Of a stretch of 57,779 nucleotides of DNA, positions 21,477-54,297 are shown piece by piece (position 1 is the stretch's first letter; the number at the start of each line of letters is the position of its first letter). The notes beneath the pieces were generated by a model, which ran no database searches, was not told where the DNA came from, and saw nothing but the letters and a program-made list of their open reading frames with translations. A program made the position numbers and the translations under genes. The DNA is from Verrucomicrobiota bacterium (GTDB lineage: Bacteria; Verrucomicrobiota; Verrucomicrobiia; Opitutales; UBA953): contig JAPLTV010000050.1 in NCBI GenBank assembly GCA_026397955.1, positions 1 to 57,779 of the forward strand, read 5' to 3'.

Positions 21477-21501
21477 GTAGGGACGTGACGGCGTCGCGTC
21501 C
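21477..21501 (+). repeat. REP-like hairpin, type C
   Basis: GTAG head followed by a C-type stem with one mismatch. It is the left half of a composite whose right half is at 21649; a dodecamer array fills the space between. Confidence 0.75.
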
Positions 21502-21530
21502 GTGGGCGGACGGACGGAGGAAGCACCGAT

Positions 21531-21598
21531 GGCTGAATCGATGACAGAGGGCGGCGTCGATGACTGAATCGAGGGCTGCGTTGAGGGCTGAATGGAGA
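21531..21598 (-). repeat. Dodecamer (DOD) array
   Basis: Imperfect 12-bp units of the GAGGGCTGAATG type, reverse orientation, lying inside the spacer of a REP-like composite. Confidence 0.7.
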
Positions 21599-21648
21599 TG
21601 GGAATGGCCGGAAATTATGCCCGGATCGACGCACGCGCCTGGGCGAAC

Positions 21649-21674
21649 GGCGGCCATGGCAATGGCCGCCCTAC
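21649..21674 (-). repeat. REP-like hairpin, type B
   Basis: Perfect 9-bp B stem followed by CTAC; preceded by GCGAAC as in the 116-bp composites. Confidence 0.8.
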
Positions 21675-21690
21675 CCGAGGCATCACGCCC

Positions 21691-21718
21691 AAAGGGAGAC
21701 CGGATGATTGGCTGGGGG
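21691..21718 (+). repeat. Half LIR element
   Basis: One arm (AAAGGGAGACCGG followed by ATGATTGGCTGGGG) of the approximately 80-bp long inverted repeat. Confidence 0.65.
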
Positions 21719-21723
21719 CTTGG

Positions 21724-21748
21724 GTAGGGGCGCGACGGCGTCGCGTCC
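21724..21748 (+). repeat. REP-like hairpin, type C
   Basis: GTAG plus stem GGGCGCGAC with loop GGC. About 50 bp of flanking sequence downstream is a direct copy of that following the element at 21477. Confidence 0.8.
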
Positions 21749-21775
21749 GTGGGCGGACGGACGGAGGAAGCACCG

Positions 21776-21830
21776 ATGGCTGAATCGATGACAGAGGGCT
21801 GGGTTGAGGGCTGAATGGATGACCAATCCC
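21776..21830 (-). repeat. Dodecamer (DOD) array
   Basis: Reverse-orientation 12-bp units (GAGGGCTGAATG type) following the duplicated flank. Confidence 0.65.
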
Positions 21831-21840
21831 CTACCCTCTG

Positions 21841-21887
21841 GGCCTCTGGGCCTCTGGGCCTCCGGGCCTCCGGGCCTCCGGGCCTCT
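21841..21887 (+). repeat. 8-bp tandem repeat GGCCTCYG
   Basis: Six contiguous copies of GGCCTCTG/GGCCTCCG, ending six bases before the stop of the SGNH gene. Isolated related units lie just upstream of starts near 44905 and 49085. Confidence 0.85.
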
Positions 21888-21893
21888 AAACGG

Positions 21894-22559
21894 TCACTTC
21901 ACCCAGGGTTTAAGCGCCAAATACCACTTATTGGCCATCTTTTCGGCGCCCTGGGCGTTCGGGTGGACCTTGTCCAAGATGGTGTCCTTCTGGGGGTCGA
22001 ACCCGGTGAACTGGTCCACGATCATGACGGGGGCGTCTGGGCGGCTCAGCTCGCGGGCCAGCAAGACCGAAGCCTGGTTGAGCTCTGGGAGGTAGCCGTA
22101 CTTGGGCAGCTTGCCACTGGGAATCACCAGCGCGAGCAGGACGACGACCTTGGGGTTATGCTTCCGAGCTGCCTCGATGATCGTGCGCTCGGCGGCGATG
22201 ATGCCCGGCACGGGCTTCTCTTCCGCGGAGTGATTGTGTCCGCAGTGGAGCAGGATGATGTCGGGCTTCATCTGCTTGAGCTTCTGCGGCATGAGGCCGG
22301 CGAGGAACTCCGCGTTCTTACCGCCATAGCCTTCGTGCCAGAGTGGACCGCTCGGTCCCTCGCTCTGCTGCGAGCCGACAAATTCAAATTTCATTCCCGC
22401 GGCGCGCAGTTTCTGGTCGAGCGGCAGGCGATACGTCACGAACGTCTTCCCGCCCTGCGTGATCGAATCACCGATCGCCAGGATGCGGACAGGCTCGGCG
22501 GAGGCAGCGACGAGGAAAGATGCGAGATAAAGGAGAGTGGATAAAAGGGCTGATTTCAT
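21894..22559 (-). CDS. Secreted SGNH/GDSL-family esterase
   Basis: A 221-residue protein with a signal peptide (residues 1-21, cut after AASA). SGNH hydrolase blocks are clear: GDSITQ with nucleophile Ser32, Gly in WHEGYGG near 77-80, GHN with Asn109, and D196-K-V-H199 carrying the catalytic Asp and His. It should be a periplasmic or secreted esterase. By analogy with relatives in polysaccharide degraders it may deacetylate glycans, but the substrate is inference. It stands alone on the minus strand, about 700 bp past the gntP-type gene, with dodecamer repeats directly upstream of its ATG. Confidence 0.85.
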   Translation of the reverse strand: MKSALLSTLLYLASFLVAASAEPVRILAIGDSITQGGKTFVTYRLPLDQKLRAAGMKFEFVGSQQSEGPSGPLWHEGYGGKNAEFLAGLMPQKLKQMKPDIILLHCGHNHSAEEKPVPGIIAAERTIIEAARKHNPKVVVLLALVIPSGKLPKYGYLPELNQASVLLARELSRPDAPVMIVDQFTGFDPQKDTILDKVHPNAQGAEKMANKWYLALKPWVK

Positions 22560-22582
22560 TGGGTGGGATGAGACAAGGAAGA

Positions 22583-22660
22583 ATAGAGGACTGAGTCGAT
22601 GGCTGCATAGAGGACTGAATCGAGGGCTGAATCGATGGGAAAAGTAGAGGGCTGAATCGA
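22583..22660 (-). repeat. Dodecamer (DOD) array upstream of the SGNH gene
   Basis: About five degenerate 12-bp units (GAGGACTGAATC type), starting 24 bp upstream of the ATG at 22559, so they lie in the probable leader or promoter. Confidence 0.7.
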
Positions 22661-22683
22661 AAAAGACCTGACGCTTGCATCGG

Positions 22684-22799
22684 GTAGGGACGTGATTGCC
22701 ATCACGTCCGTGGGCGGACGGATATCATACGGTCGGTGATCATGCCCGGCACATCGCACATGCTCTGGCGAACGGCGGCCATGGCAATGGCCGCCCTAC
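22684..22799 (+). repeat. REP-like composite A...B, 116 bp
   Basis: GTAG plus perfect A hairpin (22688-22709), spacer with GTGGGCGGACGG and GCCCGGC, then GCGAAC and perfect B hairpin (22774-22795) ending CTAC. Head-to-head arrangement. Confidence 0.85.
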
Positions 22800-22819
22800 C
22801 CAAGGCAGAAGACCGACGC

Positions 22820-22856
22820 TCAAAGGGAGACCGGAGACCGGATGATTGGCTGGGGT
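22820..22856 (+). repeat. Half LIR element
   Basis: Single arm of the long inverted repeat (CAAAGGGAGACCGG ... GATGATTGGCTGGGG). Confidence 0.65.
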
Positions 22857-22861
22857 CCGTG

Positions 22862-22886
22862 GTAGGGGCGCGACGGCGTCGCGTCC
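22862..22886 (+). repeat. REP-like hairpin, type C
   Basis: GTAG plus stem GGGCGCGAC, loop GGC. Followed by a third copy of the flank seen after 21477 and 21724. Confidence 0.8.
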
Positions 22887-22908
22887 GTGGGCGGACGGTG
22901 GAAGCACC

Positions 22909-22942
22909 GATGGCTGAATCGATGACAGAGGGCTGAATCGAT
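22909..22942 (-). repeat. Short dodecamer (DOD) array
   Basis: Two to three reverse-orientation 12-bp units that continue the triplicated flank. Confidence 0.55.
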
Positions 22943-22962
22943 GGGAAAGTATCGCAGAGTTT

Positions 22963-23112
22963 CAGGTGGCGGGTCGCGGGACTTATCCACTCAGCCCTCA
23001 ACTCAGTCCTCCCTTCAGTCCTCCGTTCAGTCCTCCGTCATCTGTCATCTGCCATCTGTCATCGACCTATTTCAGGTGACAGGTGGCAGCCCCAGGTGGC
23101 GGGTGGCGGGCG
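22963..23112 (+). repeat. GTR-DOD-GTR repeat block
   Basis: A GGTGGC-rich tract (22963-22980), then a dodecamer array (22986-23066) of AYTCAGTCCTCC-type units, then a second GGTGGCAGCCCC tract (23072-23112). The GTR-then-DOD order recurs near 33113, 48955 and, reversed, 45690. Confidence 0.7.
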
Positions 23113-23120
23113 TGTAGTGG

Positions 23121-23236
23121 GTAGGGACGTGATTGCCATCACGTCCGTGGGCGGACGGAGATGGGAAGGCTCGATCACTCCGCCCGGCTCATCCACGCAC
23201 CAAGGCGAACGGCGGCCATGGCAATGGCCGCCCTAC
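23121..23236 (+). repeat. REP-like composite A...B, 116 bp
   Basis: Perfect A hairpin at 23125-23146 and perfect B hairpin at 23211-23232, bounded by GTAG and CTAC, with central CGCCCGGC. Confidence 0.85.
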
Positions 23237-23250
23237 CCAAGGCAGGCTAT

Positions 23251-23274
23251 GTCGTGACGCGGTCCCGACCCTAC
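23251..23274 (-). repeat. REP-like hairpin, type H, overlapping a stop codon
   Basis: Imperfect stem GTCG...CGAC followed by CTAC at 23271-23274. The TAG stop of the GntP gene (23271-23273, minus) lies inside the element's GTAG head. Identical copies are at 38190 and 46050. Confidence 0.75.
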
Positions 23275-24608
23275 CGGACAAACTTCAACACCTGCTCAGC
23301 CAACAACGCCATACCAAGGCCAGAAATGCCGATCAAGGTCTCGGTGATCGTCCACGTGCGCAGGGTCTGACCGACGGTGAGCCCAAGGCATTCTTTGACC
23401 ATCCAGAAGCCGCTGTCGTTGAGGTGCGAAAGGAAGAGCGAGCCGCAGCCGATGGAGATTACCATCAACTCCGGACTGGTGCCGGGATGGGCCGCTAGGA
23501 CGGGCGCGATGAAGCCCGAGGCGACGGTGATGGCGACGGTCGCGGAGCCGGTGGCGACGCGGATGAAGGCCGAGACGAGCCAACCGTAGACCAACAACGG
23601 CAAGCCTGCGGTCGCCGCCAATTCGGCGAGCTGCTTGTCCACTCCGGCCGTCCGCATGACGAGCGCAAAGCCACCGCCAGCACCGACAAGGATGAGCGTC
23701 ATGCCGATGCCGGAGACGCTCTGTTCGGAGAATTTCAGGAGTTCGCCGGCGGAACGTCCGCAGCGTTTCCCAAAAGCCCACATCGCAAAAAGCACCGATA
23801 AAAGCAGGGCGATGACGGGGTTGCCAATGAAGAGAGCAATCTTTCCCCAGAGGGCTTCTTTCGCCTGCAGTAACTCGACCAAGGTTCCTGTGAGAAGCAG
23901 GATGACCGGCAGGAGCACGGTGAAAATCGTCAGCCCGAACGTCGGCAAGGTCTGACCCGCAGACACCGACGGCGTGAACTCGGGCGTGGCGACATCCACG
24001 CGCTTGACGGCAAGTTTGGCGAAGAACGGACCGGCGATGGCGGCAACCGGAATGCCGAGCACGAGCGCCCACAGGATGACCTTGCCCATGTCCGCGTGCA
24101 GCGCGTCGATCGCGATGACGGGACCCGGGTGCGGCGGCATCAGACCGTGCATGACGGAGAGGAACGACAACAACGGCAGCACGAGGCGCAGGAACGGCTG
24201 GCCGGTCTCCTTAGCGAGGGTGATGACGATCGGCAGGATGAGCAGCAGGCCGACCGCGAACCACGTCGTCATGCCCACGCAGAGCGCGAGCAGGATGATG
24301 CACAGGCCGATGCGATCCGGCCCGAGCGTGCGGATGAACTGCTTGGCAAGCACCCCTGCCCCGCCGGATTCGGCGAGCAACTTACCGAAGACGACGCCGA
24401 GCACGATGATCGAACCCGTGCTGGCCAAGGTGTTCCCGAAGCCCGTCTGGAAGGCCTTGAGGACCTCCGTCATGGTGAGCGCCCCGTGCGTGGCCACGAC
24501 CATCGCGCCGAGCGACAGCGAACTGATCAGCAGGGCGATGAACGGGTTAAGCTTCAGCCAGGTCACCAACAGGACCAGGACGGCGATGGCGAGCAGGGCG
24601 TAAAGCAT
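23271..24608 (-). CDS. Gluconate:H+ symporter family (GntP) permease
   Basis: The 445-residue product is almost entirely hydrophobic, with about 11-12 predicted membrane helices, and matches the length of GntP-family transporters. Family-like stretches include GFGNTLASTGSIIVLGVVFG near 55-75 and MPPHPGPV near 157-164. The family imports gluconate and related aldonates with protons across the inner membrane. It is the last gene of a three-gene minus-strand operon, 12 bp after the SDR gene, next to idonate/gluconate dehydrogenases, which supports an aldonate substrate. Exact specificity (gluconate, idonate, ketogluconate) cannot be told. Confidence 0.9.
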   Translation of the reverse strand: MLYALLAIAVLVLLVTWLKLNPFIALLISSLSLGAMVVATHGALTMTEVLKAFQTGFGNTLASTGSIIVLGVVFGKLLAESGGAGVLAKQFIRTLGPDRIGLCIILLALCVGMTTWFAVGLLLILPIVITLAKETGQPFLRLVLPLLSFLSVMHGLMPPHPGPVIAIDALHADMGKVILWALVLGIPVAAIAGPFFAKLAVKRVDVATPEFTPSVSAGQTLPTFGLTIFTVLLPVILLLTGTLVELLQAKEALWGKIALFIGNPVIALLLSVLFAMWAFGKRCGRSAGELLKFSEQSVSGIGMTLILVGAGGGFALVMRTAGVDKQLAELAATAGLPLLVYGWLVSAFIRVATGSATVAITVASGFIAPVLAAHPGTSPELMVISIGCGSLFLSHLNDSGFWMVKECLGLTVGQTLRTWTITETLIGISGLGMALLAEQVLKFVR

Positions 24609-24620
24609 GGCGCGAGGTGA

Positions 24621-25412
24621 TTAGGATTTCGGTGGGGCGACCGTGGCACGAGTAGCACCTGTGCTGATGCCCCCGTCAACCAACAAGGTCTGGCCGGTCA
24701 CGTAGCGGCTCTCTTCCGAAGAGAGGAAGACCACCGGGCCCGCGAGGTCGTCCGGCGCGCCGGGGCGCTTGAGCGGGATGCGATCACAGAGGTAGTCGAC
24801 CCACTCGCGGTTCTCGTAGAGGACGGCGTTCTGGGCGGTCTTAAACCAGCCCGGCGCGAGGCAATTGACGGTGACGCCATGGCGCCCCCAGTCGTCGGCG
24901 AGGCTCATGGTGAGCTGCTTCACGCCCCCGCGGCTGGCGCCATAGGGCGCGAGGCCGGCGTAACCGGCGACGCAGGTGACGGAGCCAATATTGACGATGC
25001 GTCCATAGCCGCGCGCAATCATACCCGGCGCGACGGCCTGCGACGTGAAGAACGTGCCACGAAGATTCGTATCGAGGACCATGTTCCAATCCTCCCAGGT
25101 GACCTCGAGGGCGGGCTTGCGCGCGTTGCAGCCGGCGTTGTTCACGAGGATGTCGATGCGGCCCATCTGCTTCTCCACTGAAGCGACGGCGGCCTTGATG
25201 CTATCATGATCGCGGACATCGAGGTCGACGCCGCAGGTGCGGCGACCGAGGGCCTCGATCTCCTTGCGGAACGGGGCGAGTTTGGAGGCGTCGCGGCTCG
25301 ACATCGCGATGTCGGCGCCGGCCTGCGCGAGGGCGCGGGCGAAGTATTGGCCGAGGCCGCGGCTGGTGCCGGTGATGAAGGCGACCTTGCCGGTGAGATC
25401 GAAGAAAGCCAT
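24621..25412 (-). CDS. SDR oxidoreductase, gluconate 5-dehydrogenase-like
   Basis: A 263-residue classical short-chain dehydrogenase. The nucleotide motif TGTSRGLG is at 14-21, NNAG at 91-94, Asn116, Ser144 and Tyr157 are in place, and GQTLLVDGG is near the end. Family members at such loci interconvert gluconate and 5-ketogluconate (IdnO/Gno) with NAD(P)(H) in the cytoplasm. The operon context (zinc dehydrogenase upstream, GntP downstream, 12-bp gaps on both sides) agrees. Odd point: the YxxxK active-site lysine is Arg161 (YGASR), read directly from the DNA, so activity may be altered or the residue tolerated. Another sugar or polyol substrate is possible. Confidence 0.85.
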   Translation of the reverse strand: MAFFDLTGKVAFITGTSRGLGQYFARALAQAGADIAMSSRDASKLAPFRKEIEALGRRTCGVDLDVRDHDSIKAAVASVEKQMGRIDILVNNAGCNARKPALEVTWEDWNMVLDTNLRGTFFTSQAVAPGMIARGYGRIVNIGSVTCVAGYAGLAPYGASRGGVKQLTMSLADDWGRHGVTVNCLAPGWFKTAQNAVLYENREWVDYLCDRIPLKRPGAPDDLAGPVVFLSSEESRYVTGQTLLVDGGISTGATRATVAPPKS

Positions 25413-25424
25413 TGATTCTATTGG

Positions 25425-26465
25425 TCAGACTTGAGGGGCGAGGATGACCTTCATCACGCCGGGAGCGCCGGCATAGAGCTTCGCGAACCACTCGGCGCCC
25501 TGCGCAAGCGGCGCGACGGCGGAGATGATCTTGTCGACCTTGATCTGCTTGGTAGCGAGGAGCTCGATGCAGCGCGGGATCTCGCCGGCGGAGGCGCAGG
25601 AACCCTGCAGGCGAAGCTGACGGGTGACGACGACCTGGAGCGGGAGTTCGGTCTTCGGCGTGAGGTTGCCAACGAGCGTCACCGTGCCGCCCTTGCGCAC
25701 GGCGTGGATTGCGGAAAGCACGGTGGCGTTGAGGCCGACGCACTCGAACGCAGCGTCGGCGCCCTGCCCCTTGGTGAGTGATTTGACGAACTCGGTGAGG
25801 TCGCCGCCAGTCTTGGGATTGAAGCTGTGGGTGGCTCCAAGTTCCTTAGCGACGGCGAGGCGCGAGTCCTCGGTGTCGACGGCGATGACCTGGGCGAAAC
25901 CCGCGATCTTGGCGGCCTGCAGCGTCAGGAGGCCGATCATGCCGGTGCCCACGACGATGGCAGTGTCGCCCGGGGCGACGGGCGTGAGACGGACAGCGTG
26001 CACGCCGACGGAGACGGCCTCGATCATCGCGGCTTCGGCGAAACCGAGTTCGGCGGGAAGCTTATGAAGAATACGGGCAGGGACAGTGACGAACTCGGCG
26101 AACGCGCCATGGCGACGGTAGTCGCCGCAGGAGACGCCGAGGACCTGGCGGTTGTCGCAGAGATTGACGTCGCCGCGCTTACAGTGGACGCAGTCACCGC
26201 AGAAGACCGTGGAGTCGAAGGTCACGCGGTCGCCCGGGGCGAAGCCCTTCACAGCGGCGCCCACGCCGGTGATGACGCCCGCAGCCTCGTGGCCCATGAC
26301 CAGGGGCGGGATACGTCGGCCCGTGGAGCCGTCGTAGCCATGGATGTCGGAACCGCAGATCCCGCAGGCGCGGACCTGGATGAGGACGTCGTCCGGACCG
26401 CAGACCGGATCGGCCACGTCGACGTAGGACATCTTCTTATATTCGGTGAGGAGCAGGGCTTTCAC
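25425..26465 (-). CDS. Zinc-dependent medium-chain dehydrogenase, L-idonate 5-dehydrogenase-like
   Basis: A 346-residue MDR-family enzyme starting at GTG; no other start fits. Catalytic zinc ligands are Cys37 (CGICGSD) with His59-Glu60 (GHE). Structural zinc cysteines are 89, 92, 95 and 103 in VFCGDCVHCKRGDVNLC. The Rossmann motif VGTGMIG is near 172-178. The family oxidises sugar alcohols and acids with NAD(P)+. Next to an SDR of gluconate 5-dehydrogenase type and a GntP permease, L-idonate to 5-ketogluconate is the best guess; sorbitol or threonine dehydrogenase-like activity is the alternative. It is first in the operon and divergent from a secreted gluconolactonase. Confidence 0.85.
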   Translation of the reverse strand: MKALLLTEYKKMSYVDVADPVCGPDDVLIQVRACGICGSDIHGYDGSTGRRIPPLVMGHEAAGVITGVGAAVKGFAPGDRVTFDSTVFCGDCVHCKRGDVNLCDNRQVLGVSCGDYRRHGAFAEFVTVPARILHKLPAELGFAEAAMIEAVSVGVHAVRLTPVAPGDTAIVVGTGMIGLLTLQAAKIAGFAQVIAVDTEDSRLAVAKELGATHSFNPKTGGDLTEFVKSLTKGQGADAAFECVGLNATVLSAIHAVRKGGTVTLVGNLTPKTELPLQVVVTRQLRLQGSCASAGEIPRCIELLATKQIKVDKIISAVAPLAQGAEWFAKLYAGAPGVMKVILAPQV

Positions 26466-26516
26466 AGAGGATGAGGAAGGAGGGTTTTGGGGAGGGGGGC
26501 AAGATGGTTAAGAGAC

Positions 26517-26560
26517 AGGAGAGGACTGAATAGAGGACTGCGTTGAGGACTGAATGGAAA
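26517..26560 (-). repeat. Dodecamer (DOD) array
   Basis: Three neat 12-bp units: GAGGACTGAATA, GAGGACTGCGTT, GAGGACTGAATG, about 50 bp upstream of the zinc dehydrogenase start. Confidence 0.8.
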
Positions 26561-26687
26561 AGTTCCGTCACCCGAACCCGAACCTGAACCTGAGCACCCG
26601 CACCTGGCTCCTGATGGCCGAGACCTGAGACCCGAAGATGTGCCCCATCCCCATCATCCGGTCTCGCCTTCTCCTCTGCGTTCCCAA

Positions 26688-26714
26688 CCGCTATCCGCTA
26701 ACCGCCAACCGCTT
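26688..26714 (-). repeat. Heptamer (HEP) array
   Basis: About four 7-bp units (ACCGCTA, TCCGCTA, ACCGCCA, ACCGCTT), 55 bp before the gluconolactonase ATG. They would be translated if an upstream in-frame ATG at 26638 were used, one reason to prefer 26770. Confidence 0.75.
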
Positions 26715-26769
26715 CCACCTATTTAACAAACATTTGCCTCCGCTCGGTCCCCGCCCTACCCATCTCACC

Positions 26770-27729: not shown

Positions 27730-27744
27730 CCGCGCGCTGATTAG

Positions 27745-27861
27745 GTAGGGCGGCCATTGCCATGGCCGCCGTTCGCAGCGGCACGTCGGATTAGCCGGGC
27801 AAGTTATCTGAACGCTCCAACATCCGTCCGCCCACGGACGTGATGGCAATCACGTCCCTAC
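27745..27861 (-). repeat. REP-like composite B...A (A...B inverted), 117 bp
   Basis: Perfect B hairpin at 27749-27770 after GTAG, GTTCGC, central GCCGGGC, then CCGTCCGCCCAC and a perfect A hairpin (27836-27857) ending CTAC. Same element as 22684, opposite strand, 16 bp after the gluconolactonase stop. Confidence 0.85.
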
Positions 27862-27865
27862 CTGA

Positions 27866-27905
27866 TGCCCCAGCCAATCATCTGGCCTCCGGTTTCCCTT
27901 TCTGA
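27866..27905 (-). repeat. Half LIR element
   Basis: Reverse arm: CCCCAGCCAATCAT ... CCGGTTTCCCTTT. Confidence 0.6.
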
Positions 27906-27923
27906 GTTAGCCCGTTGCCTTGG

Positions 27924-28040
27924 GTAGGGCGGCCATTGCCATGGCCGCCGTTCGCCGTGGCACGTAAAGAGAGCCGGGCAATATTTTCGGTCCATTCCAA
28001 CATCAGTCCGCCCACGGACGCGACGCCGTCGCATCCCTAC
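27924..28040 (-). repeat. REP-like composite B...C (hairpin-swapped), 117 bp
   Basis: Same frame as the B...A unit at 27745, including GCCGGGC and the GTCCGCCCAC tract, but the distal hairpin (28016-28036) is type C instead of A. Confidence 0.8.
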
Positions 28041-28053
28041 CTCGAGGCAACTA

Positions 28054-28078
28054 GGTCAGCACGCAGTGCTGACCCTAC
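28054..28078 (-). repeat. REP-like hairpin, type F (GGTCAGCAC)
   Basis: Perfect 9-bp stem with loop of 3, then CTACCTCAAGGCA, the extended constant head in reverse. Confidence 0.8.
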
Positions 28079-28090
28079 CTCAAGGCAGGC

Positions 28091-28115
28091 GGATGCGATG
28101 TCATCGCATCCCTAC
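28091..28115 (-). repeat. REP-like hairpin, type G
   Basis: Perfect stem GGATGCGAT/ATCGCATCC, then CTAC. The only copy of this stem in the window. Confidence 0.8.
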
Positions 28116-28165
28116 CCGATGCATCGATCAAAGCCCGCCACCTTAAGTGACGACCGCTTTCTGCT

Positions 28166-28257
28166 CCATTCAGCCCTCCATTCAGTCCTCAACGCAGTCC
28201 TCGATTCAGTCCTCCGTCATCGACGCAGTCATCCGTCTTCCGTCCTCTGTCCTCCCC
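28166..28257 (+). repeat. Dodecamer (DOD) array
   Basis: About seven degenerate 12-bp units (ATTCAGYCCTCM) ending directly at the stop codon of the minus-strand dehydrogenase gene. Confidence 0.75.
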
Positions 28258-32943: not shown

Positions 32944-32997
32944 GTAGGGCCAACCATCCTTGGTTGGCCGCGGCCGAGCAGGGATGCTCGGCCCTAC
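32944..32997 (+). repeat. REP-like composite D-E, 54 bp
   Basis: GTAG plus D-type stem in its GGCCAACCA variant (32948-32969), two bases, then E stem (32972-32993) and CTAC. Compared with the copies at 34775 and 38057, both arms of the D stem changed together. Confidence 0.85.
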
Positions 32998-38056: not shown

Positions 38057-38110
38057 GTAGGGCTGGCCATCCTTGGCCGGCCGCGGCCGAGCAGGGATGC
38101 TCGGCCCTAC
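38057..38110 (+). repeat. REP-like composite D-E, 54 bp
   Basis: Same as the 34775 unit: D stem 38061-38082, E stem 38085-38106, bounded by GTAG and CTAC. Confidence 0.85.
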
Positions 38111-38189: not shown

Positions 38190-38213
38190 GTCGTGACGCG
38201 GTCCCGACCCTAC
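38190..38213 (-). repeat. REP-like hairpin, type H
   Basis: Same sequence as the element overlapping the gntP stop (23251) and the one at 46050; imperfect stem, CTAC end. Confidence 0.7.
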
Positions 38214-38225: not shown

Positions 38226-38250
38226 GGGCAGCACGCGGTGCTGCCCCTAC
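38226..38250 (-). repeat. REP-like hairpin, type F (GGGCAGCAC)
   Basis: Perfect 9-bp stem, then CTACCCCAAGGCA. Confidence 0.8.
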
Positions 38251-39074: not shown

Positions 39075-39190
39075 GTAGGGCGGCCATTGCCATGGCCGCC
39101 GTTCGAGACCGCACGTGCGCATCACCGTGCAGCCTACTCAACCCTCCAACCACCGTCCGCCCACGGACGTGATGGCAATCACGTCCCTAC
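39075..39190 (-). repeat. REP-like composite B...A, 116 bp
   Basis: Perfect B (39079-39100) and A (39165-39186) hairpins, bounded by GTAG and CTAC. Its spacer is related to those at 39204 and 40326. Confidence 0.85.
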
Positions 39191-39203: not shown

Positions 39204-39318
39204 GTAGGGCGGCCATTACCATGGCCGCCGTTCGAGATCGCACGTGCGCATCACCGGGCAGCCTGCTCGACCCTCCAAGCTCCGTCCGCCCACGGACGCC
39301 ACGCAGTGGCTCCCCTAC
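39204..39318 (-). repeat. REP-like composite, B stem with an exchanged second hairpin, 115 bp
   Basis: B hairpin (39208-39229, loop TACC), spacer nearly identical to 40326, but the second hairpin (39294-39314) has arms GCCAC/GTGGC instead of the A stem. Confidence 0.8.
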
Positions 39319-40325: not shown

Positions 40326-40440
40326 GTAGGGGCGCGACGGCGTCGCGTCCGTTCGCCAATTGGCGTGCGCATCACCGGGCAGCCTGCTCGACCCTCTAAG
40401 CTCCGTCCGCCCACGGACGTGATGGCAATCACGTCCCTAC
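40326..40440 (-). repeat. REP-like composite C...A (hairpin-swapped), 115 bp
   Basis: The first hairpin (40330-40350) is type C where the sister units have B. The spacer matches 39204 almost base for base; the second hairpin is a perfect A (40415-40436). Confidence 0.85.
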
Positions 40441-40452: not shown

Positions 40453-40478
40453 GTAGGGCTGGCCATCGTTGGTCAGCC
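40453..40478 (+). repeat. REP-like hairpin, type D
   Basis: GTAG plus D stem with one mismatch; its usual E partner is missing. Confidence 0.7.
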
Positions 40479-40488
40479 GTGACTTAAG

Positions 40489-40513
40489 GTAGGGACAGCA
40501 CCACGTGCTGTCC
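40489..40513 (+). repeat. REP-like hairpin, type F (GGACAGCAC)
   Basis: GTAG plus perfect 9-bp stem with loop CAC. Differs from the other F copies at the third base and its pairing partner together. Confidence 0.8.
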
Positions 40514-40536
40514 TAATTGGCTTTAGTCCAATGGGA

Positions 40537-40562
40537 GGACGCGATGGTGATCACGTCCCTAC
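40537..40562 (-). repeat. REP-like hairpin, type A variant
   Basis: Stem GGACGCGAT/ATCACGTCC with one mismatch, then CTAC. Confidence 0.7.
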
Positions 40563-40572
40563 CTCGATGCAC

Positions 40573-40598
40573 GGCCGAGCAGGGATTCTCGGCCCTAC
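40573..40598 (-). repeat. REP-like hairpin, type E
   Basis: E stem with one mismatch, then CTAC; no D partner. Confidence 0.7.
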
Positions 40599-40609
40599 CC
40601 GAGGACCTA

Positions 40610-40634
40610 GGGCAGCACGCGGTGCTGCCCCTAC
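40610..40634 (-). repeat. REP-like hairpin, type F (GGGCAGCAC)
   Basis: Perfect stem, CTAC end; identical hairpin to 38226. Confidence 0.8.
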
Positions 40635-44687: not shown

Positions 44688-44689
44688 AG

Positions 44690-44714
44690 GTAGGGACGCG
44701 ACGGCGTCGCGTCC
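44690..44714 (+). repeat. REP-like hairpin, type C, perfect
   Basis: GTAG plus GGACGCGAC/GTCGCGTCC, loop GGC, two bases after a stop codon. Confidence 0.85.
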
Positions 44715-44930: not shown

Positions 44931-44931
44931 C

Positions 44932-45657: not shown

Positions 45658-45662
45658 CCGAG

Positions 45663-45752: not shown

Positions 45753-45761
45753 GAAATAAAG

Positions 45762-45800: not shown

Positions 45801-45815
45801 GCAAAATCGTAAGAC

Positions 45816-45897: not shown

Positions 45898-45917
45898 ATG
45901 CTTTCTCTCTGCCTCGG

Positions 45918-46034
45918 GTAGGGACGTGATTGCCATCACGTCCGTGGGCGGACAGAGTTTGGAACGGTCGAAGATCTCACCCGGCTCATGGCACGTGCGT
46001 ATGCGAACGGCGGCCATGGCAATGGCCGCCCTAC
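45918..46034 (+). repeat. REP-like composite A...B, 117 bp
   Basis: Perfect A (45922-45943) and B (46009-46030) hairpins with outer flanks TGCCTCGG and CCAAGGCA. Confidence 0.85.
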
Positions 46035-46049
46035 CCAAGGCATCCCTAT

Positions 46050-46073
46050 GTCGTGACGCGGTCCCGACCCTAC
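46050..46073 (-). repeat. REP-like hairpin, type H
   Basis: Third copy of the imperfect H hairpin, following an A...B composite exactly as at 23121-23274. Confidence 0.7.
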
Positions 46074-46085
46074 CAACTGGCATCA

Positions 46086-46116
46086 GCCTAACCGCCAACC
46101 GCCTACCGCCCACCGC
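46086..46116 (-). repeat. Heptamer (HEP) array
   Basis: Four units ACCGCCA/ACCGCCT/ACCGCCC, 70 bp upstream of alaS. Confidence 0.7.
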
Positions 46117-46185
46117 TTCCACCCTTCATTTCCCTTCCCTTTTCCCCCGACAGGGGCTTAAAAAGACCCCTTCCATTTTCCGTCC

Positions 46186-48721: not shown

Positions 48722-48743
48722 GAAACGTAAACGTCCCGAAAGA

Positions 48744-48776
48744 AGGGCTGAATCGACTTATCGATTCAGCCCTCTT
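48744..48776 (+). terminator. Hairpin of two facing dodecamer units after alaS
   Basis: Thirteen-bp perfect stem AGGGCTGAATCGA (48744-48756) / TCGATTCAGCCCT (48761-48773), loop CTTA, then CTCTTC with few T. It may act as a terminator; it is also exactly one DOD unit in each orientation. Confidence 0.5.
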
Positions 48777-48793
48777 CATTTCCCCTGCCTCGG

Positions 48794-48909
48794 GTAGGGA
48801 CGTGATTGCCATCACGTCCGTGGGCGGACGGACATTAGAGGGTCGGCGATTCTGCCCGGCTCATGGCACGCGCCAAGGCGAACGGCGGCCATGGCAATGG
48901 CCGCCCTAC
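48794..48909 (+). repeat. REP-like composite A...B, 116 bp
   Basis: Perfect A (48798-48819) and B (48884-48905) hairpins, outer flanks TGCCTCGG and CGAGGCA. Confidence 0.85.
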
Positions 48910-48923
48910 CCGAGGCAGGGCGC

Positions 48924-49055
48924 TCAAAGGGAGACCGGAAACCGGATGATCTCGCTTCGGGTGGCAGGTGGCAGCCCCGGGTGGCAGGTGGCGGGACTTT
49001 TCAATTCAGCCCTCAACACAGTCCTCAACACAGTCCTCTACTCAGTCCTCCGTCA
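48924..49055 (+). repeat. Half LIR, GTR tract and dodecamer array
   Basis: Half LIR (48924-48951), GGTGGCAGGTGGCAGCCCC tract (48955-48993), then DOD units with CAACACAGTCCT (49003-49055). This module train lies upstream of the gene at 49110. Confidence 0.7.
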
Positions 49056-49109
49056 TCTGGCTCACTCCTCTCATTGCCTCCGGCCCTCTGGGCCTCTATT
49101 CCTCGACTC

Positions 49110-49802
49110 ATGCGCTTCCTCGCCATCCTGCTCCTGCTCCCGCTGATGCTCAACGCGGCAACCACCGGCACCAAGACCCACGTCAAGATGCAGGTCGACG
49201 CCGATCACCTCTCCCTCCCGGTCTCGATCTCAATCAAGGGTAAGGATCGCACCGCGGTCGACGCCCGCCTCGATGCCATCCGCAAGGAACTTGAGAAACG
49301 TTTCGCCGACCAACCGGGCTGGGAACTTCGCGAAATCTCCTCCGAGTTCGCCCACGCCGAAGCGAAGTCGTACGTCTCGCGAGCCAACAATGGCAGCAAA
49401 CTCTTCGGCGACGATGAGGCCGACAAAGGTGACGTCACCTATGTCGCCAGCGCGCGCTGGGAACTGCACACCGAAGCCGACAAGGGACTGAAGGGCTTGG
49501 AAATCCTACGCACCAAAGCCTCCGACCTCGTGAAGGCGAAAAATGACGACGAGAAGCAGGTCGTCGGTAATCCGGAGTACGTGCTGACCAATCCCCAGGA
49601 CTATCGCAACGAACTGCTCGACCAGATCAAAAACGATTTCGAAGAAGCGAAGAAGCACCTGCCTGAAGGCCAGTGGACGCTCGAAATCGCCAGCCTCGCC
49701 CAGACCGTCGACGTCGTCGCCCTTGGCGGCAAGCGCTTCGAGGTCAGCCTCGCCTACCGGATGGCTTTCGTCACGCCGAAGCCTGAAAAGGCCACGAAAT
49801 AA
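49110..49802 (+). CDS. Exported hypothetical protein, 230 residues
   Basis: Family not recognised with confidence. It has a signal peptide (MRFLAILLLLPLMLNAA), then a soluble alpha/beta domain with a heptad-like stretch AVDARLDAIRKELEKRF (about 48-65), an acidic middle and a conserved-looking end FEVSLAYRMAFVT. The layout distantly recalls SIMPL/DUF541 periplasmic proteins, but no defining motif is seen. The ATG at 49110 was chosen because upstream in-frame starts translate repeat DNA. It lies 65 bp upstream of nadK on the same strand. Confidence 0.7.
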   Translation: MRFLAILLLLPLMLNAATTGTKTHVKMQVDADHLSLPVSISIKGKDRTAVDARLDAIRKELEKRFADQPGWELREISSEFAHAEAKSYVSRANNGSKLFGDDEADKGDVTYVASARWELHTEADKGLKGLEILRTKASDLVKAKNDDEKQVVGNPEYVLTNPQDYRNELLDQIKNDFEEAKKHLPEGQWTLEIASLAQTVDVVALGGKRFEVSLAYRMAFVTPKPEKATK

Positions 49803-49867
49803 GGCCTTTAAGGCCGGAAGCCCCGGCTTGTCCTTGCCCTTCCCTGAAGGGCGCCTAGTCGTCATTC

Positions 49868-50680
49868 ATGGCCATCCGCCGCCTCACGCTCGTCGTCAAT
49901 CGCACCAAGCCCGGTGTGGATGATATCGTGCGTTCGGTCCAGGAGGCCGCCCAGAAAGCCGGCGTGACCCTCACGGTCGCCGACGGCTGGCCCGTGAGCC
50001 GCGCCACCCTCCAGGGTGCCGACGCTTGCGGCGTGGTCGGCGGCGACGGCACCTTCCTCGGCGTGGCCGAGGCCGCTGCGCTCGAAGGCGTGCCGCTCTT
50101 CGGGATTAACCGCGGCAAGCTCGGCTTCCTCGCCGCCTACCCGAGCGAAGACGTCGGCGCTTCGCTCCAGTCCATTCTCTCCGGCGACTTCCGCGTCGAG
50201 AAACGCGCGCTCCTCGAGATTCGCTTCGCCGACGGCAGCTTCACCCTGGCGCTGAACGACCTCGTCATCAAGACGCGCGACGTCTTCCGCATGGGCCGCT
50301 TCTCGGTGCTCGCCGATGGCGCCCGCGTGAACGAATACCGCGCCGACGGCCTCATCCTCGCCTCCCCCACGGGCACCTCGGCCTATAACCTCGCCGCCGG
50401 CGGCCCGCTCGTCGACCCCGCCGCCTCGGTCCTCGTCCTGACCCCGATCTGCGCGCACACGCTCTCGAATCGCTCGGTCATCTTCGACGGCGAGACCGAA
50501 CTCGAGATCCGCAGCGAAGACAGCGCCCAGCTCGGACTCTCGGTCGACGGCCGCGAGACCCTCGAAGCCCAGAGTCGGCTCCCCCTCATCATCCGCACCG
50601 CCAAGGTCCAGCTCGCCCTCCTGCGTCCGAAATCGCTCACCCATTTCGACGTCCTGCGTAGTAAGCTGAAGTGGTCGTAA
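49868..50680 (+). CDS. nadK: NAD kinase
   Basis: A 270-residue cytoplasmic enzyme making NADP+ from NAD+ and ATP or polyphosphate. Hallmarks: GGDGTFL at 58-64 with catalytic Asp60, INRGKLGFLA near 104-113, LNDLVI, the ribose and adenine-binding SPTGTSAYNLAAGGPLV, and TPICAHTLSNRSVI. The length and order match the family. It may be co-transcribed with the exported protein gene just upstream. Confidence 0.95.
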   Translation: MAIRRLTLVVNRTKPGVDDIVRSVQEAAQKAGVTLTVADGWPVSRATLQGADACGVVGGDGTFLGVAEAAALEGVPLFGINRGKLGFLAAYPSEDVGASLQSILSGDFRVEKRALLEIRFADGSFTLALNDLVIKTRDVFRMGRFSVLADGARVNEYRADGLILASPTGTSAYNLAAGGPLVDPAASVLVLTPICAHTLSNRSVIFDGETELEIRSEDSAQLGLSVDGRETLEAQSRLPLIIRTAKVQLALLRPKSLTHFDVLRSKLKWS

Positions 50681-50744
50681 ACGAGGGGGCAAGCTGGCAC
50701 GGGGGCACGGTGACACGGGGAAAGCAACCCACCTGCAGCCTAAG

Positions 50745-50770
50745 GTAGGGTTGAGCACCCTCGCTCAACC
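50745..50770 (+). repeat. REP-like hairpin, type J
   Basis: GTAG plus GGTTGAGC/GCTCAACC with six-base loop; only copy of this stem, abutting the composite at 50772. Confidence 0.75.
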
Positions 50771-50771
50771 G

Positions 50772-50887
50772 GTAGGGACGTGATTGCCATCACGTCCGTG
50801 GGCGGACGGAGCTTAGACGGTCGGTAATCATGCCCGGCTCATGGCACGTACAGCTGCGGACGGCGGCCATGGCAATGGCCGCCCTAC
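50772..50887 (+). repeat. REP-like composite A...B, 116 bp
   Basis: Perfect A (50776-50797) and B (50862-50883) hairpins, central TGCCCGGCTCATGGCACGT as at 48794. Confidence 0.85.
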
Positions 50888-50913
50888 CCAAGACACGGCC
50901 GCCCTGCGGCGGC

Positions 50914-50944
50914 CTAGCCCCAGCCCTAGCCCTATCCCTAGCCC
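50914..50944 (+). repeat. Hexamer tandem repeat CCCTAG
   Basis: About five units of CCCTAG/CCCCAG/CCCTAT, 56 bp before the ABC-F start. Confidence 0.75.
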
Positions 50945-50999
50945 AATCTGCCCCCTTTCTCTTGCCCTTCCGCCTTCCCGCCTCTTTAACGCCCTTTCG

Positions 51000-52859
51000 A
51001 TGCTGACGATTGCCAACCTTTCCAAGTCCTACGGGCCCCGCACCTTATTCGCGGAGGTCTCGCTGAATATTGCCCGGACGGACCGCCTCGGACTCGTCGG
51101 CGCCAATGGGGCCGGCAAGTCGACGCTCTTCAACATCATCCTCGGCAAGGACCAGCCTGACGAAGGCCTCATCGAGTGGGAACGCGGCGCAAACTTCGGC
51201 TTCCTTCCCCAGGAAAGCGCCCCGGCCGGCGACGAGACAATTCTCCAAATCGCCACCAGCGGCGGTAAGCTCGAGCCCGAGAACGACGACGACTGGGATA
51301 TCGACTATACCCTTGAACCGCGTGCGAAGAAAATCCTCGCTGGCCTCGGCTTCCGCGAGAGCGACCATGAGAAGGTAGCCAAAACCTTCTCCGGCGGCTG
51401 GGTAATGCGCGCGCACCTCGCCCGCCTCCTGGTCAGCGAGCCCACGCTCCTGTTGCTCGACGAACCGACCAATCACCTCGACCTTGAAGCCCTACTCTGG
51501 TTCCAGGATTACCTGACGCGCTACCCGGGCGGCCTCGTCGTCATCTCGCACGACCGTGCCTTCCTCAACGCGCTTTGCACCGGCACGATCGAACTCCGTG
51601 CCCAGCGCCTCCATTGCTATAACGGCAACTACGACGACTTCATCCTCGAGCGCGTGGCCCGCAAGGATCGCCAGCAGGCGATGTTCAAGAACCAGCAGCG
51701 CGAGATCGCGCACCTCCAGACGTTCGTCGACCGTTTCGGCGCCAAGGCCTCCATGGCCTCTCGCGCGAAATCCAAGGAAAAGCAGATCGCCCGCCTCGAG
51801 GAAGTCGCGATCGACGAGCCCGAGGACGACCTGAAGAAGATCCAATTCCGCTTCCCGCAGCCCCCGCGCTCCGGCCTGAAGGTCATGAAGCTCGAGCACG
51901 TCCAGCAGGCCTACGGCGAGCACGTCGTCTATAAGGACCTTAATTTCGAATGTGAACGCGGCCAGCGGACGGTGCTCGTCGGCCCCAACGGCGCCGGCAA
52001 GTCCACCCTCCTCAAGATCCTCGCCGGCGTCATCCCGATCAATGGCGGCGTGCGCGAGGAAGGCGGTAACGTCATTACCGGCTACTTCGCCCAGAACCGC
52101 GTCGACAACCTCAACCCGAAGCTGACCGTCCTCGAGAACGTGATGGAACTCCGCACCACGGAGAACGGCCTCACCGAACAGCAGGCCCGCGGCATGCTCG
52201 GCACGTTCCTTTTCCGCAAGGACGACGTGAATAAGCGCGTCTCGGTTCTTTCGGGTGGTGAGAAATCCCGCCTCGCCCTGGTGAAACTGATGATCAATCC
52301 GCCGAACTTCCTCCTCATGGACGAACCGACGACGCACCTCGACATCATGTCGATCGACGCGCTCATCGCCGCCCTGAAGAACTACGAAGGCACGCTCTAC
52401 TTCGTGAGCCACGACGTGCACTTCATCCGCGAGATCGCCAAGACCGTCCTGCATGTGCACTCTGGCCGCCTCACGAGTTACGCCGGCGACTACGCCTACT
52501 ACCTCGAGAAGTCCAAGTCCGGCAACGAGCGCGCCGCGCTCACCGCCGGCTTCACCGACGCCCGCCCGAAGCAGGAAGAAGCCGCGAAGGTCGAAAAGCC
52601 GAAGGCGCCCGCGAAACCCTCCGCTTCGGACATCCGTAAGCTGAAGGCCGATGTCACGAAGTGTGAACAGCAGGTCTCGGAACTGGAAGCCAAGCAGGCC
52701 CAGATCACCGCTGAACTCGCCGACCCGGCCACTTACACCGGTGGCGTGAACCTCCCCCAATTGAACGCCCGCCTCCGCGATACTATCAACGCCCTGCAGA
52801 CCGCCACCGCCGCCTGGGAACAGGCCGCGCAGAAGCTCAGCGAGGCAGAGGGCGCCTGA
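51000..52859 (+). CDS. ABC-F family ATPase (ribosome-associated type)
   Basis: A 619-residue protein with two ABC domains and no membrane segments. Domain 1: Walker A GANGAGKST (34-42), signature FSGGWVMRAHLA, Walker B LLLLDEPTNHLD. Domain 2: Walker A GPNGAGKST, signature LSGGEKSRLAL, Walker B FLLMDEPTTHLD. A basic interdomain linker rich in Arg/Lys/Glu lies between, and a C-terminal coiled coil (DIRKLKADVTKCEQQVSELE onward) follows. ABC-F proteins act on the ribosome in translation or resistance; subfamily (Uup-, YdiF- or Ettd-like) cannot be fixed. The ATG at 51000 is preferred to one at 50841, which would translate REP-like DNA. Confidence 0.9.
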   Translation: MLTIANLSKSYGPRTLFAEVSLNIARTDRLGLVGANGAGKSTLFNIILGKDQPDEGLIEWERGANFGFLPQESAPAGDETILQIATSGGKLEPENDDDWDIDYTLEPRAKKILAGLGFRESDHEKVAKTFSGGWVMRAHLARLLVSEPTLLLLDEPTNHLDLEALLWFQDYLTRYPGGLVVISHDRAFLNALCTGTIELRAQRLHCYNGNYDDFILERVARKDRQQAMFKNQQREIAHLQTFVDRFGAKASMASRAKSKEKQIARLEEVAIDEPEDDLKKIQFRFPQPPRSGLKVMKLEHVQQAYGEHVVYKDLNFECERGQRTVLVGPNGAGKSTLLKILAGVIPINGGVREEGGNVITGYFAQNRVDNLNPKLTVLENVMELRTTENGLTEQQARGMLGTFLFRKDDVNKRVSVLSGGEKSRLALVKLMINPPNFLLMDEPTTHLDIMSIDALIAALKNYEGTLYFVSHDVHFIREIAKTVLHVHSGRLTSYAGDYAYYLEKSKSGNERAALTAGFTDARPKQEEAAKVEKPKAPAKPSASDIRKLKADVTKCEQQVSELEAKQAQITAELADPATYTGGVNLPQLNARLRDTINALQTATAAWEQAAQKLSEAEGA

Positions 52860-52874
52860 ACCCGTCTCCTCAGC

Positions 52875-53900
52875 GTGCTTGCCCTCCTGGCCGCCGCCGT
52901 CCCCGCCGCCTTCGGCCATACCGCCGGCGAAGAAATGGCCAAGTCCGCCAATGCCTTCCTCGGCTCGCTCAACGAGACCCAGCGCGCCAAGGCGACCTTC
53001 AAGTTCGACGACGCTGAACGCACCCACTGGATCTTCGTCCCGGCCGTCCGCCTCGGTCTGCCGATCAAGGAAATGAATCCCGGCCAGCGCCATTTCGCCC
53101 AGGCCCTCCTCTCCGTCTCCCTCAGCCAGCGCGGCCACATGAAGGTCGAGTCCGTCATGGCCCTCGAGTACCTCCTCTTCCTCATCGAAGAAGGCAAGGG
53201 CGCCAACAAGCGCGACGCCGAGAACTACTTCGTGTCGATCTTCGGCAAGCCTGACGCGCATGGCACCTGGGGCTTCCGCTGGGAAGGCCACCACTGCTCG
53301 CAGAACTTCACGATCGTCGACGGCGTGCTCGTCAGCTCGACGCCTTCCTTCCTCGGCACCAACCCGGGCCAGGTGAAGTCTGACACCACCCACGTCGGCG
53401 ACACGATGCCTGGCCTCGTCGGCTTCGAGCTCCTCGACGCCGAAGACGCCGCCGGCCGCAATCTCGCCAAGTCCCTCACCGCCGAGCAGAAGAAGACCGG
53501 CTTCATCCCCGGCGAAACTCCGAAGGATGTCATCACCGGCAATAAGCAGAAGGCCGACGGCATCATCAAGCATAAGGGTATCGCCTTCTCGGCCCTCACC
53601 GCCGAACAGAAGAAACTGGCCGGTACGATTATCGCCGAATACGTCGGTCGCGCCCGCGCCGACTTCGCCGTACAGGAAATGGTGGCCATCTCCAAGACCC
53701 CGGAAGACCAGCTCTTCTTCGGCTACAACGGCGGCACGGAAGCCGGCCAGGCCCACTACTACAGCATCCAGGGCCCGACCTTCCTCCTCGAGTTCGCCAA
53801 CTTCCAGAACGGCGCCAACCACGTCCACGCCTCCTGGCGCGACCTGAAGAAGGACTTCGGTTACGATCCGCTCGCCGAGCACGCCAAGACCCACAAGTAA
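52875..53900 (+). CDS. Exported DUF3500 protein
   Basis: A 341-residue protein starting at GTG 52875, 15 bp after the ABC-F stop in the same frame; no other start exists. The hydrophobic LALLAAAVPAAFG is a signal-like core but lacks the usual basic start; the preceding codons (TRLLS) would supply it, so an unconventional start is possible. DUF3500 features include FRWEGHHCSQNFTIVDG (about 133-149), STPSFLGTNPGQV and a C-terminal GAQHYYSIQGPTFLLE-like segment (here GQAHYY). Family function is unknown. It is probably in one transcript with the ABC-F gene and ends in a strong terminator. Confidence 0.85.
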   Translation: MLALLAAAVPAAFGHTAGEEMAKSANAFLGSLNETQRAKATFKFDDAERTHWIFVPAVRLGLPIKEMNPGQRHFAQALLSVSLSQRGHMKVESVMALEYLLFLIEEGKGANKRDAENYFVSIFGKPDAHGTWGFRWEGHHCSQNFTIVDGVLVSSTPSFLGTNPGQVKSDTTHVGDTMPGLVGFELLDAEDAAGRNLAKSLTAEQKKTGFIPGETPKDVITGNKQKADGIIKHKGIAFSALTAEQKKLAGTIIAEYVGRARADFAVQEMVAISKTPEDQLFFGYNGGTEAGQAHYYSIQGPTFLLEFANFQNGANHVHASWRDLKKDFGYDPLAEHAKTHK

Positions 53901-53921
53901 GCCTGACTCAGGGCTTCAAAC

Positions 53922-53947
53922 AAAACCCCGGGCGACCGGGGTTTTTT
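53922..53947 (+). terminator. Rho-independent terminator after the DUF3500 gene
   Basis: Ten-bp stem AAAACCCCGG/CCGGGGTTTT, loop GCGA, T run. Confidence 0.93.
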
Positions 53948-54009
53948 ATTGGGCGACCTGACGGTCGCCTGGGGATCTGCTGGCATGGTGAACTGCTGCG
54001 ATGCCTTGG

Positions 54010-54125
54010 GTAGGGACGTGATTGCCATCACGTCCGTGGGCGGACGGAAGTCGTAGGGTCGATAAACTTGCCCGGCTCAACGCACGTGCCGCTGCGAACG
54101 GCGGCCATGGCAATGGCCGCCCTAC
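54010..54125 (+). repeat. REP-like composite A...B, 116 bp (tandem copy 1)
   Basis: Perfect A (54014-54035) and B (54100-54121) hairpins. Its spacer is nearly identical to that of the next copy. Confidence 0.88.
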
Positions 54126-54138
54126 CCGAGACATCACG

Positions 54139-54176
54139 CTCAAAGGGAAACCGGAGACCGGATAATTAGCTGGGGC
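54139..54176 (+). repeat. Half LIR element
   Basis: CAAAGGGAAACCGG ... GATAATTAGCTGGGG, between the two composite copies. Confidence 0.6.
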
Positions 54177-54181
54177 CTAAG

Positions 54182-54297
54182 GTAGGGACGTGATTGCCAT
54201 CACGTCCGTGGGCGGACGGAAGTCGTAGGGTCGATAAACTTGCCCGGCTCAACGCGCATGTCGCTGCGAACGGCGGCCATGGCAATGGCCGCCCTAC
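54182..54297 (+). repeat. REP-like composite A...B, 116 bp (tandem copy 2)
   Basis: Starts 172 bp after copy 1 and shares its spacer (AGTCGTAGGGTCGATAAACT). It ends two bases before the stop codon of the minus-strand gene at 54300. Confidence 0.88.

Follow-up and report, generated by a model that had tools for sequence, protein, structure and literature searches.

GTAG-headed hairpins of an Opitutae genome as probable REP elements of many co-resident RAYT families

The short hairpins headed by GTAG that are scattered through the stretch of DNA analysed here (57,779 nt, hereafter the window) are very probably REP elements of co-resident RAYT families. More than a dozen REP families occur in one genus, each associated with a separate lineage of transposases, and strict one-to-one specificity between RAYT and hairpin is likely. 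In the mechanism we propose, the REP elements, mostly head-to-head doublets, would be miniature elements that Y1-HUH RAYTs mobilise as single-stranded DNA, with about 15 RAYT-REP pairs in the genus and each RAYT lineage acting on a hairpin family of its own. The constant GTAG would be the common guide motif beside the hairpin, the loop and closing pairs would carry family identity, and the stem would above all have to pair, so that stems would diversify in paired form as RAYT lineages diverge. The anatomy of the elements, their association with RAYTs, the mostly paired changes and a nested insertion were observed directly; that a named RAYT binds its hairpins, that GTAG, loop and stem have the roles given here, and that the elements still move is inferred.

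The main scan required a stem starting right after a 4-base head, with 9-bp arms, at most one mismatch and a loop of 3–6 bases. Of 210 such structures in the window, 43 had GTAG as their head, more than any other tetranucleotide; CCAC and GAAC, which rank next, are consistent with these hairpins read in reverse (3' flanks GTGG and GTTC). Chance, or the base composition of a GC-rich genome, has a negligible probability as the source of these hairpins: 10 Markov-1 randomisations of the sequence contained 0–2 GTAG hairpins each (mean 0.4), which confirms the enrichment, and nothing was found in favour of this explanation. A looser scan returned 45 GTAG hairpins, 43 with a stem beginning GG; hairpins at 440 and 44372, whose scores equal the threshold, are chance-like and stand outside the 43 of the main scan. 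One further family, F15 (GTAGGGTCGGGACcgcGTCACGACa), contributes three imperfect copies, which brings the total to 46 elements, near the earlier count of about 48 without equalling it. Before position 21477, the weak hairpin at 440 is the only GTAG hairpin in the window, and the first and last coordinates given earlier (21477 and 54297) were correct. Outside genes called with a home-made codon-usage caller trained on the window lie 42 of the 43 hairpins, though 77% of positions 21000–57779 is called coding, in agreement with the intergenic placement claimed before; the remaining hairpin has a 12-base overlap with a gene start that is itself unsure. There are 17 different arm pairs among the 43 hairpins, where at least ten stem sequences had been noted.

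As in REP elements, the tetranucleotide GTAG stands directly 5' of a palindrome, and extragenic copies are many and dispersed, with 167 in the window and 20 stretches of its own genome, 14 of which were picked because hits or RAYTs lay on their contigs. Among the 167 copies, the base immediately before GTAG (-1) is G in 99%, the base before that is A or G in 91%, and T occupies position -4 in 51% against a background of 18%. Because inserted units bring up to about 13 bases beyond GTAG at one or both ends, conservation outside GTAG may partly belong to the element. A CT-type cleavage site outside GTAG, as in studied RAYTs, may be present.

The genome measures 2.45 Mb in 126 contigs, and the window corresponds to contig C47. 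REP density in this genome is very uneven, with 43 hairpins in the window and 0–3 in stretches of C1, C3, C4, C5 and C6 that were taken without regard to hits. Wrong binning is not favoured as the cause of this unevenness, as stretches that have hairpins and stretches that lack them are similar in tetranucleotide composition (likeness to the window 0.93–0.97, and 0.88 for C72). Positions 1–21476 of the window contain giant open reading frames (641–6457 and 10175–17413) with no Pfam match, as well as stretches without called genes. No plasmid relatives of one 301-base stretch were found.

A feature overlooked in the earlier note is that 30 of the 43 hairpins are dimer ends, so that one element often holds two different stems. 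These 30 form 15 head-to-head dimers with GTAG facing outwards, mostly of 116 or 54 bp, and the other 13 hairpins stand alone. The elements of the window are as follows.

22684..22799, plus strand: F1 head-to-head dimer, GTAG-GGACGTGAT(tgcc) ... (rc) GTAG-GGCGGCCAT(tgcc), 116 bp, with 52 blast matches in its own genome, partial ones counted (hairpin scan, blast)
23121..23236, plus strand: F1 dimer (hairpin scan, blast)
27745..27861, minus strand: F1 dimer, reversed (hairpin scan, blast)
39075..39190, minus strand: F1 dimer, reversed (hairpin scan, blast)
45918..46034, plus strand: F1 dimer (hairpin scan, blast)
48794..48909, plus strand: F1 dimer; in several related genomes the intergenic slot is occupied by different REP families
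50772..50887, plus strand: F1 dimer, folded as single-stranded DNA
54010..54125, plus strand: F1 dimer (hairpin scan, blast)
54182..54297, plus strand: F1 dimer (hairpin scan, blast)
21606..21674, plus strand: partial F1 element, GGCGGCCAT end alone
39204..39298, minus strand: partial F1 element, GGCGGCCAT end
27924..28040, minus strand: F1-like element with one end GGATGCGAC(ggc)
40326..40440, minus strand: hybrid dimer of an F1 GGACGTGAT end and a GGGCGCGAC(ggc) end
32944..32997, plus strand: F5 dimer GGCCAACCA(tcct)/GGCCGAGCA(tccc), 54 bp; either strand is predicted to form two local hairpins, and the same stems flank the RAYT of locus L066
34775..34828, plus strand: F5 dimer GGCTGGCCA/GGCCGAGCA
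38057..38110, plus strand: F5 dimer
21477..21501, plus strand: single hairpin GGACGTGAC(ggc)GTCGCGTCC, with no close RAYT-flanking match
21724..21748, plus strand: single hairpin GGGCGCGAC(ggc), F10-like
22862..22886, plus strand: single hairpin GGGCGCGAC(ggc), F10-like
28054..28078, minus strand: F8 hairpin GGTCAGCAC(tgc), identical to RAYT-flanking hairpins
28091..28115, minus strand: F2 hairpin GGATGCGAT(gac), identical to RAYT-flanking hairpins
38226..38250, minus strand: F7b hairpin GGGCAGCAC(cgc)
40453..40634, no strand assigned: mosaic cluster of five hairpins (F5-like, F7, F1-like stem with loop cacc, F5-like, F7b)
44690..44714, plus strand: single hairpin GGACGCGAC(ggc), F12- or F10-like
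50745..50770, plus strand: F4-like single hairpin, missing from the otherwise alike site of locus L147
23251..23274, minus strand: F15 imperfect hairpin
38190..38213, minus strand: F15 imperfect hairpin
46050..46073, minus strand: F15 imperfect hairpin

An identical counterpart beside a RAYT gene was found for 30 of the 43 window hairpins, a counterpart with at most two changes for nine, and one further off for four; in the larger own-genome set, hairpins beside the genome's own RAYTs match themselves, and the window has no RAYT match. Seven families are thus represented in the window by exact matches (F1, F2, F5, F7, F7b, F8 and F15) and up to three by near matches (F4, F10 and F12). Another dispersed repeat occurs in intergenic DNA, at about 34.7 and 38.0 kb of the window and at 4628–4744 of locus L044, where an F1-type dimer sits within the copy. 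Tandem units of about 40 nt, each made of a GTAG hairpin and a 14-nt tail ending in CTGCCTCGG, lie at 5629–5709 of L043 and at 1184–1447 of L066.

The association with transposases was followed through NF047646, which gave 79 matches across 36 of the 55 genomes of the genus, most of them scoring under the curated cut-off; five are in the window's own genome (contigs C72, C1, C58, C107 and C11). The locus set comprises 71 of the 79 matches, read as 69 rows that represent 68 genes (L119 and L125 are the same gene), and eight matches, that on C11 included, lie outside it. L076, which has F2 hairpins on both sides, and L117 were left out because the HUH pattern was not matched. One clade holds 51 of the 69 rows, and GTAG hairpins lie beside the gene in all 51: in 49 by the main scan, at most 420 nt from the HUH motif, and in L105 and L106 as an imperfect F15 hairpin on both sides. 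Hairpins on either side within 420 nt belong to the same family in 41 of 42 rows, and L105 and L106 follow the same rule. The exception is a gene on C107 of the own genome, found as two broken pieces. At this locus (L110), the second piece of the F10 RAYT has internal stops, and an F1 dimer replaces F10 on one side. These flanks support the tie between REP elements and Y1-HUH RAYTs that the earlier note had proposed.

The hairpin family also follows the RAYT tree. With each row labelled by its downstream hairpin where present (a rule of our own), 15 labels require 14 changes, the minimum possible, against a mean of 46.4 after shuffling, and none of 200 shuffles came as low as 14; the rows are not independent, since RAYTs of the same family often share a locus. 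The two F13 rows do not form a clade on this tree. L103 (F8) and L086 (F7) have no flank in common with their kin, yet keep the hairpin of their clade. Across 14 families, hairpin distance correlated with RAYT distance (Mantel r 0.38, p 0.001), as did the loop region alone (0.39, p 0.004) and the mid-stem alone (0.24, p 0.03), with the F10 and F7b sets also containing hairpins of neighbouring F1 and F7 elements. Many co-resident families, one of the options left by the earlier note, therefore holds, and a single drifting family is ruled out, because hairpin family tracks RAYT clade. The idea that RAYT genes move on their own is unsupported wherever flanks could be compared: pairs within F3–F8, F7b and F11 with long enough flanks mostly share at least one side. 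Among F1, F9, F13 and part of the F10 RAYTs, little or no flank is shared, partly since the flanks are short.

The other clade comprises 18 rows, most with reading frames of 285–333 codons and three shorter, and has no GTAG hairpin within 420 nt. Repeated palindromes flank these RAYT-like genes at L083, L084, L087, L089, L090, L108, L111, L112 and L126–L129. The palindromes reach about 105 bp, with ends fixed as GGGGTCAG and a middle that varies; in 12 of the 18 rows, whole or partial palindromes containing GGGGTCAG or the complementary sequence flank the gene. In this respect they resemble the TIRYT/TIRtrons of Di Nocera et al. 2013 (PMC3733652), for which the available part of the paper gives the motif GGGGWSAS. 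This is a separate system beside the GTAG families, and it, too, shows a constant head and a variable body.

Pairing within stems was assessed on F1 copies located by their spacer alone and hence unselected for pairing; only end-to-end spacer matches were used, giving 26 copies from 40 loci; in 24 of these copies neither head was damaged or out of register. Own-genome copies showed six paired double changes and one one-sided change in 324 pair cells, and copies from five other genomes showed six paired double, four one-sided and one unpaired double change in 432 cells. Divergence between F1 copies was 17–22% in spacers and 0–11% in stems. Stem changes are rare and mostly paired, in keeping with the earlier claim that stems vary yet stay paired. 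The F15 stem is imperfect, so perfect pairing is not universal.

The window and the 20 own-genome stretches together hold 61 dimers; 35 measure 115–118 bp (F1 and its kin) and seven measure 54 bp. Across all loci used, which partly overlap, 164 of 372 elements are head-to-head dimers, that is, inverted doublets. Heterodimers make up 65 of the 66 distinct dimer types with 9-bp arms, the sole homodimer being of F2, and a few types join different families, hybrid F1/F10 dimers among them. For ten family representatives, the closing pairs and loop differ between the two ends by 0.6, against 2.97 when ends are re-paired (0 of 20,000), and the mid-stems show 2.3 differences over 5 bases where random pairing gives 2.94 (p 0.04). 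Partner mid-stems are thus slightly more alike than random, as they are when dimer types are compared across loci. In F9, the loop region is not common to both ends. In general, loop and stem base are shared by the ends and the mid-stem has no excess of difference; the striking point is that identical ends hardly occur.

The two ends of a dimer very rarely repeat one another in inverted form, which allows each end to fold locally. When 139 distinct native dimers were folded as single-stranded DNA, both local hairpins were kept with a mean probability of 0.57, against 0.00 when the right end was swapped for a copy of the left, a contrast that is a consequence of an equilibrium prediction in which identical 25-base ends necessarily anneal, and no sign of selection. 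For the minus strand of F1, the predicted optimum lacks one of the two hairpins. Short dimers, taken apart from the F7, F7b and F15 units that have a RAYT between identical hairpins, do not have the long-hairpin REPIN form in which the halves pair together. The RAYTs of these three families stand between identical, oppositely oriented hairpins, which, like the F2 homodimer, goes against a general two-end rule, and in the own genome the three families are mostly single hairpins. A tentative proposal is that short dimers are asymmetric two-ended elements, in which the RAYT would read the common loop and closing pairs and the mid-stems would be kept different for separate folding of the two ends as single-stranded DNA. 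The odds of this two-end reading are lowered by the slight likeness of partner mid-stems and by the identical ends of F7, F7b and F15, and we consider it possible, if on the doubtful side.

Insertion into a new site could be read from nested elements. F3 dimers lie within the short middle of F4 dimers at L148, L154 and L160, F4 being intact elsewhere, which is insertion of known direction; the cases at L154 and L160 probably go back to one common event. For two single hairpins, the one at 50745 compared with its L147 site and the one in L160 compared with its L154 site, the difference may be a gain or a loss, since a deletion between GGTAGGG direct repeats would leave the same picture. Where neighbouring genes are 91–97% alike, the intergenic slots beside them are occupied by one family in one genome and by another elsewhere. 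No clean empty site could be identified for the F1 copy after 48721, the intergenic DNA there being too different.

The distribution of F1 complicates this picture. Of 25 genomes of the genus, 20 contain F1 elements, against none of 13 genomes from other families of the order, and a wider search found F1-type elements in 36 of 55 genus genomes. The F1 RAYT (at least 75% identity) was found in 2 of the 55. Sixteen genomes have at least ten F1 matches and no detectable F1 RAYT, which counts against family pairing, with match counts that may include incomplete matches and elements of the related F10 family (in G048, which is among the 16, every match is weak) and with draft assemblies that can drop genes between repeats. 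In five genomes lacking the F1 RAYT, the copies read have true F1 stems. G019, which is 99% complete, gave no RAYT match, and heads are changed in two of its eight spacer-found F1 copies. F1 without its RAYT may reflect recent RAYT loss, movement by another RAYT, or upkeep by the host.

The abundance of F1 in those 16 genomes also speaks for a variant of this scheme in which a few RAYTs mobilise several families in trans: GTAG, pairing and size would suffice for recognition, and the families beside RAYT genes would be inherited neighbours. Hybrid F1/F10 dimers fit this variant, as does the fact that many RAYT loci are common to several genomes, so that hairpins were possibly inherited along with them. 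We regard it as unlikely, though worth keeping in mind, because the loop region tracks RAYT distance and is common to both dimer ends, and L103 and L086 retain the hairpin of their clade with no flank shared with kin. Matched RAYT-REP pairs remain the preferred reading, also when set against the possibility that the hairpins are held mainly by selection at the RNA level, as 3' hairpins of mRNAs or terminators, with transposition long past. The near-complete restriction of window copies to intergenic DNA would suit such selection, and so would the paired changes and the stems that stay alike in genomes with no detectable F1 RAYT while spacers are about 19% different. A T run follows two F7 copies outside the window (L039 9991 and L044 10691), where single copies could be terminators. 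The hairpin family nevertheless tracks the RAYT clade, intact dimers lie within other dimers, no Rfam match was found in the window, and TTTT within 8 bases 3' follows none of the 43 window hairpins. Terminators are therefore rejected for the window, and selection at the RNA level as the main cause is very improbable.

The earlier note had considered a fixed head with diversifying, still-paired stems to be undescribed, which is contradicted by two papers as far as their available text goes. Nunvar et al. 2013 (PMC3686654) report 22 and 13 REP classes tied to RAYTs, with a GTAG/GTGG head and different palindromes. The REPs of fluorescent pseudomonads and stenotrophomonads described there resemble the present ones in having many classes per group, each beside RAYTs, behind a GTAG/GTGG head; those of stenotrophomonads also have 8–9 perfect pairs directly after the head and occur mostly as inverted doublets. 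They differ in belonging to other bacteria and in sequence, and in that account high abundance goes with a cognate RAYT, whereas here F1 is abundant in many genomes lacking one. Di Nocera et al. 2013 (PMC3733652) describe, in the part available, 24 GTAG families, with certain genomes holding several, stems that change in complementary fashion, and heterodimers; the verrucomicrobium O. terrae is mentioned there as a host with abundant GTAG repeats. The GTAG tag, stems of mostly 6–9 pairs, complementary changes between subfamilies, head-to-head heterodimers, coexistence of several families and a verrucomicrobial host are all shared with our elements, and this likeness to the O. terrae families is by description, not by consensus sequence. 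According to the accessible portions of these two papers, the Opitutae GTAG hairpins are a further case of described RAYT-REP systems with many families. A shared-loop or two-end rule was not found in the available accounts of Nunvar et al. or Di Nocera et al. Among the titles listed on RAYT in Verrucomicrobia and on heterodimers and palindromes of REP and RAYT systems, only Di Nocera et al. looked relevant, and none was found on repetitive extragenic palindromic sequences together with Opitutus.

The REPINs of P. fluorescens SBW25 (Bertels and Rainey 2011, PMC3116915) share, in the available text, the inverted doublet as unit, singlets as remnants and the link to RAYTs. Their halves are predicted there to pair into one long hairpin, whereas most dimer ends here are different stems that tend to fold locally. 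The recognition model used here comes from the group 3 TnpA-REP REPtrons of S. maltophilia and Marinomonas (Corneloup et al. 2021, PMC8266576), which likewise have a perfect palindrome, a short loop and GTAG; the biochemistry is that of other enzymes. For these two group 3 systems, the part of the paper at hand reports that loop and GTAG outweigh stem sequence in cleavage and that stem mismatches harm it.

The abundance of F1 without a detectable cognate RAYT asks whether the host benefits, whether the RAYT was recently lost, or whether movement occurs in trans. Heterodimer preference is left without an obvious explanation in the available account of Di Nocera et al. (PMC3733652), where protection from degradation is suggested; the two-end rule offers an explanation that can be tested. 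If true, the two-end reading would explain the heterodimer preference together with part of the stem diversity, and would mean that the loops of about 15 RAYT lineages form a code that can be read. The roughly 15 matched, strongly diverged enzyme-substrate pairs in one genus are a base for finding the RAYT residues that read loops.
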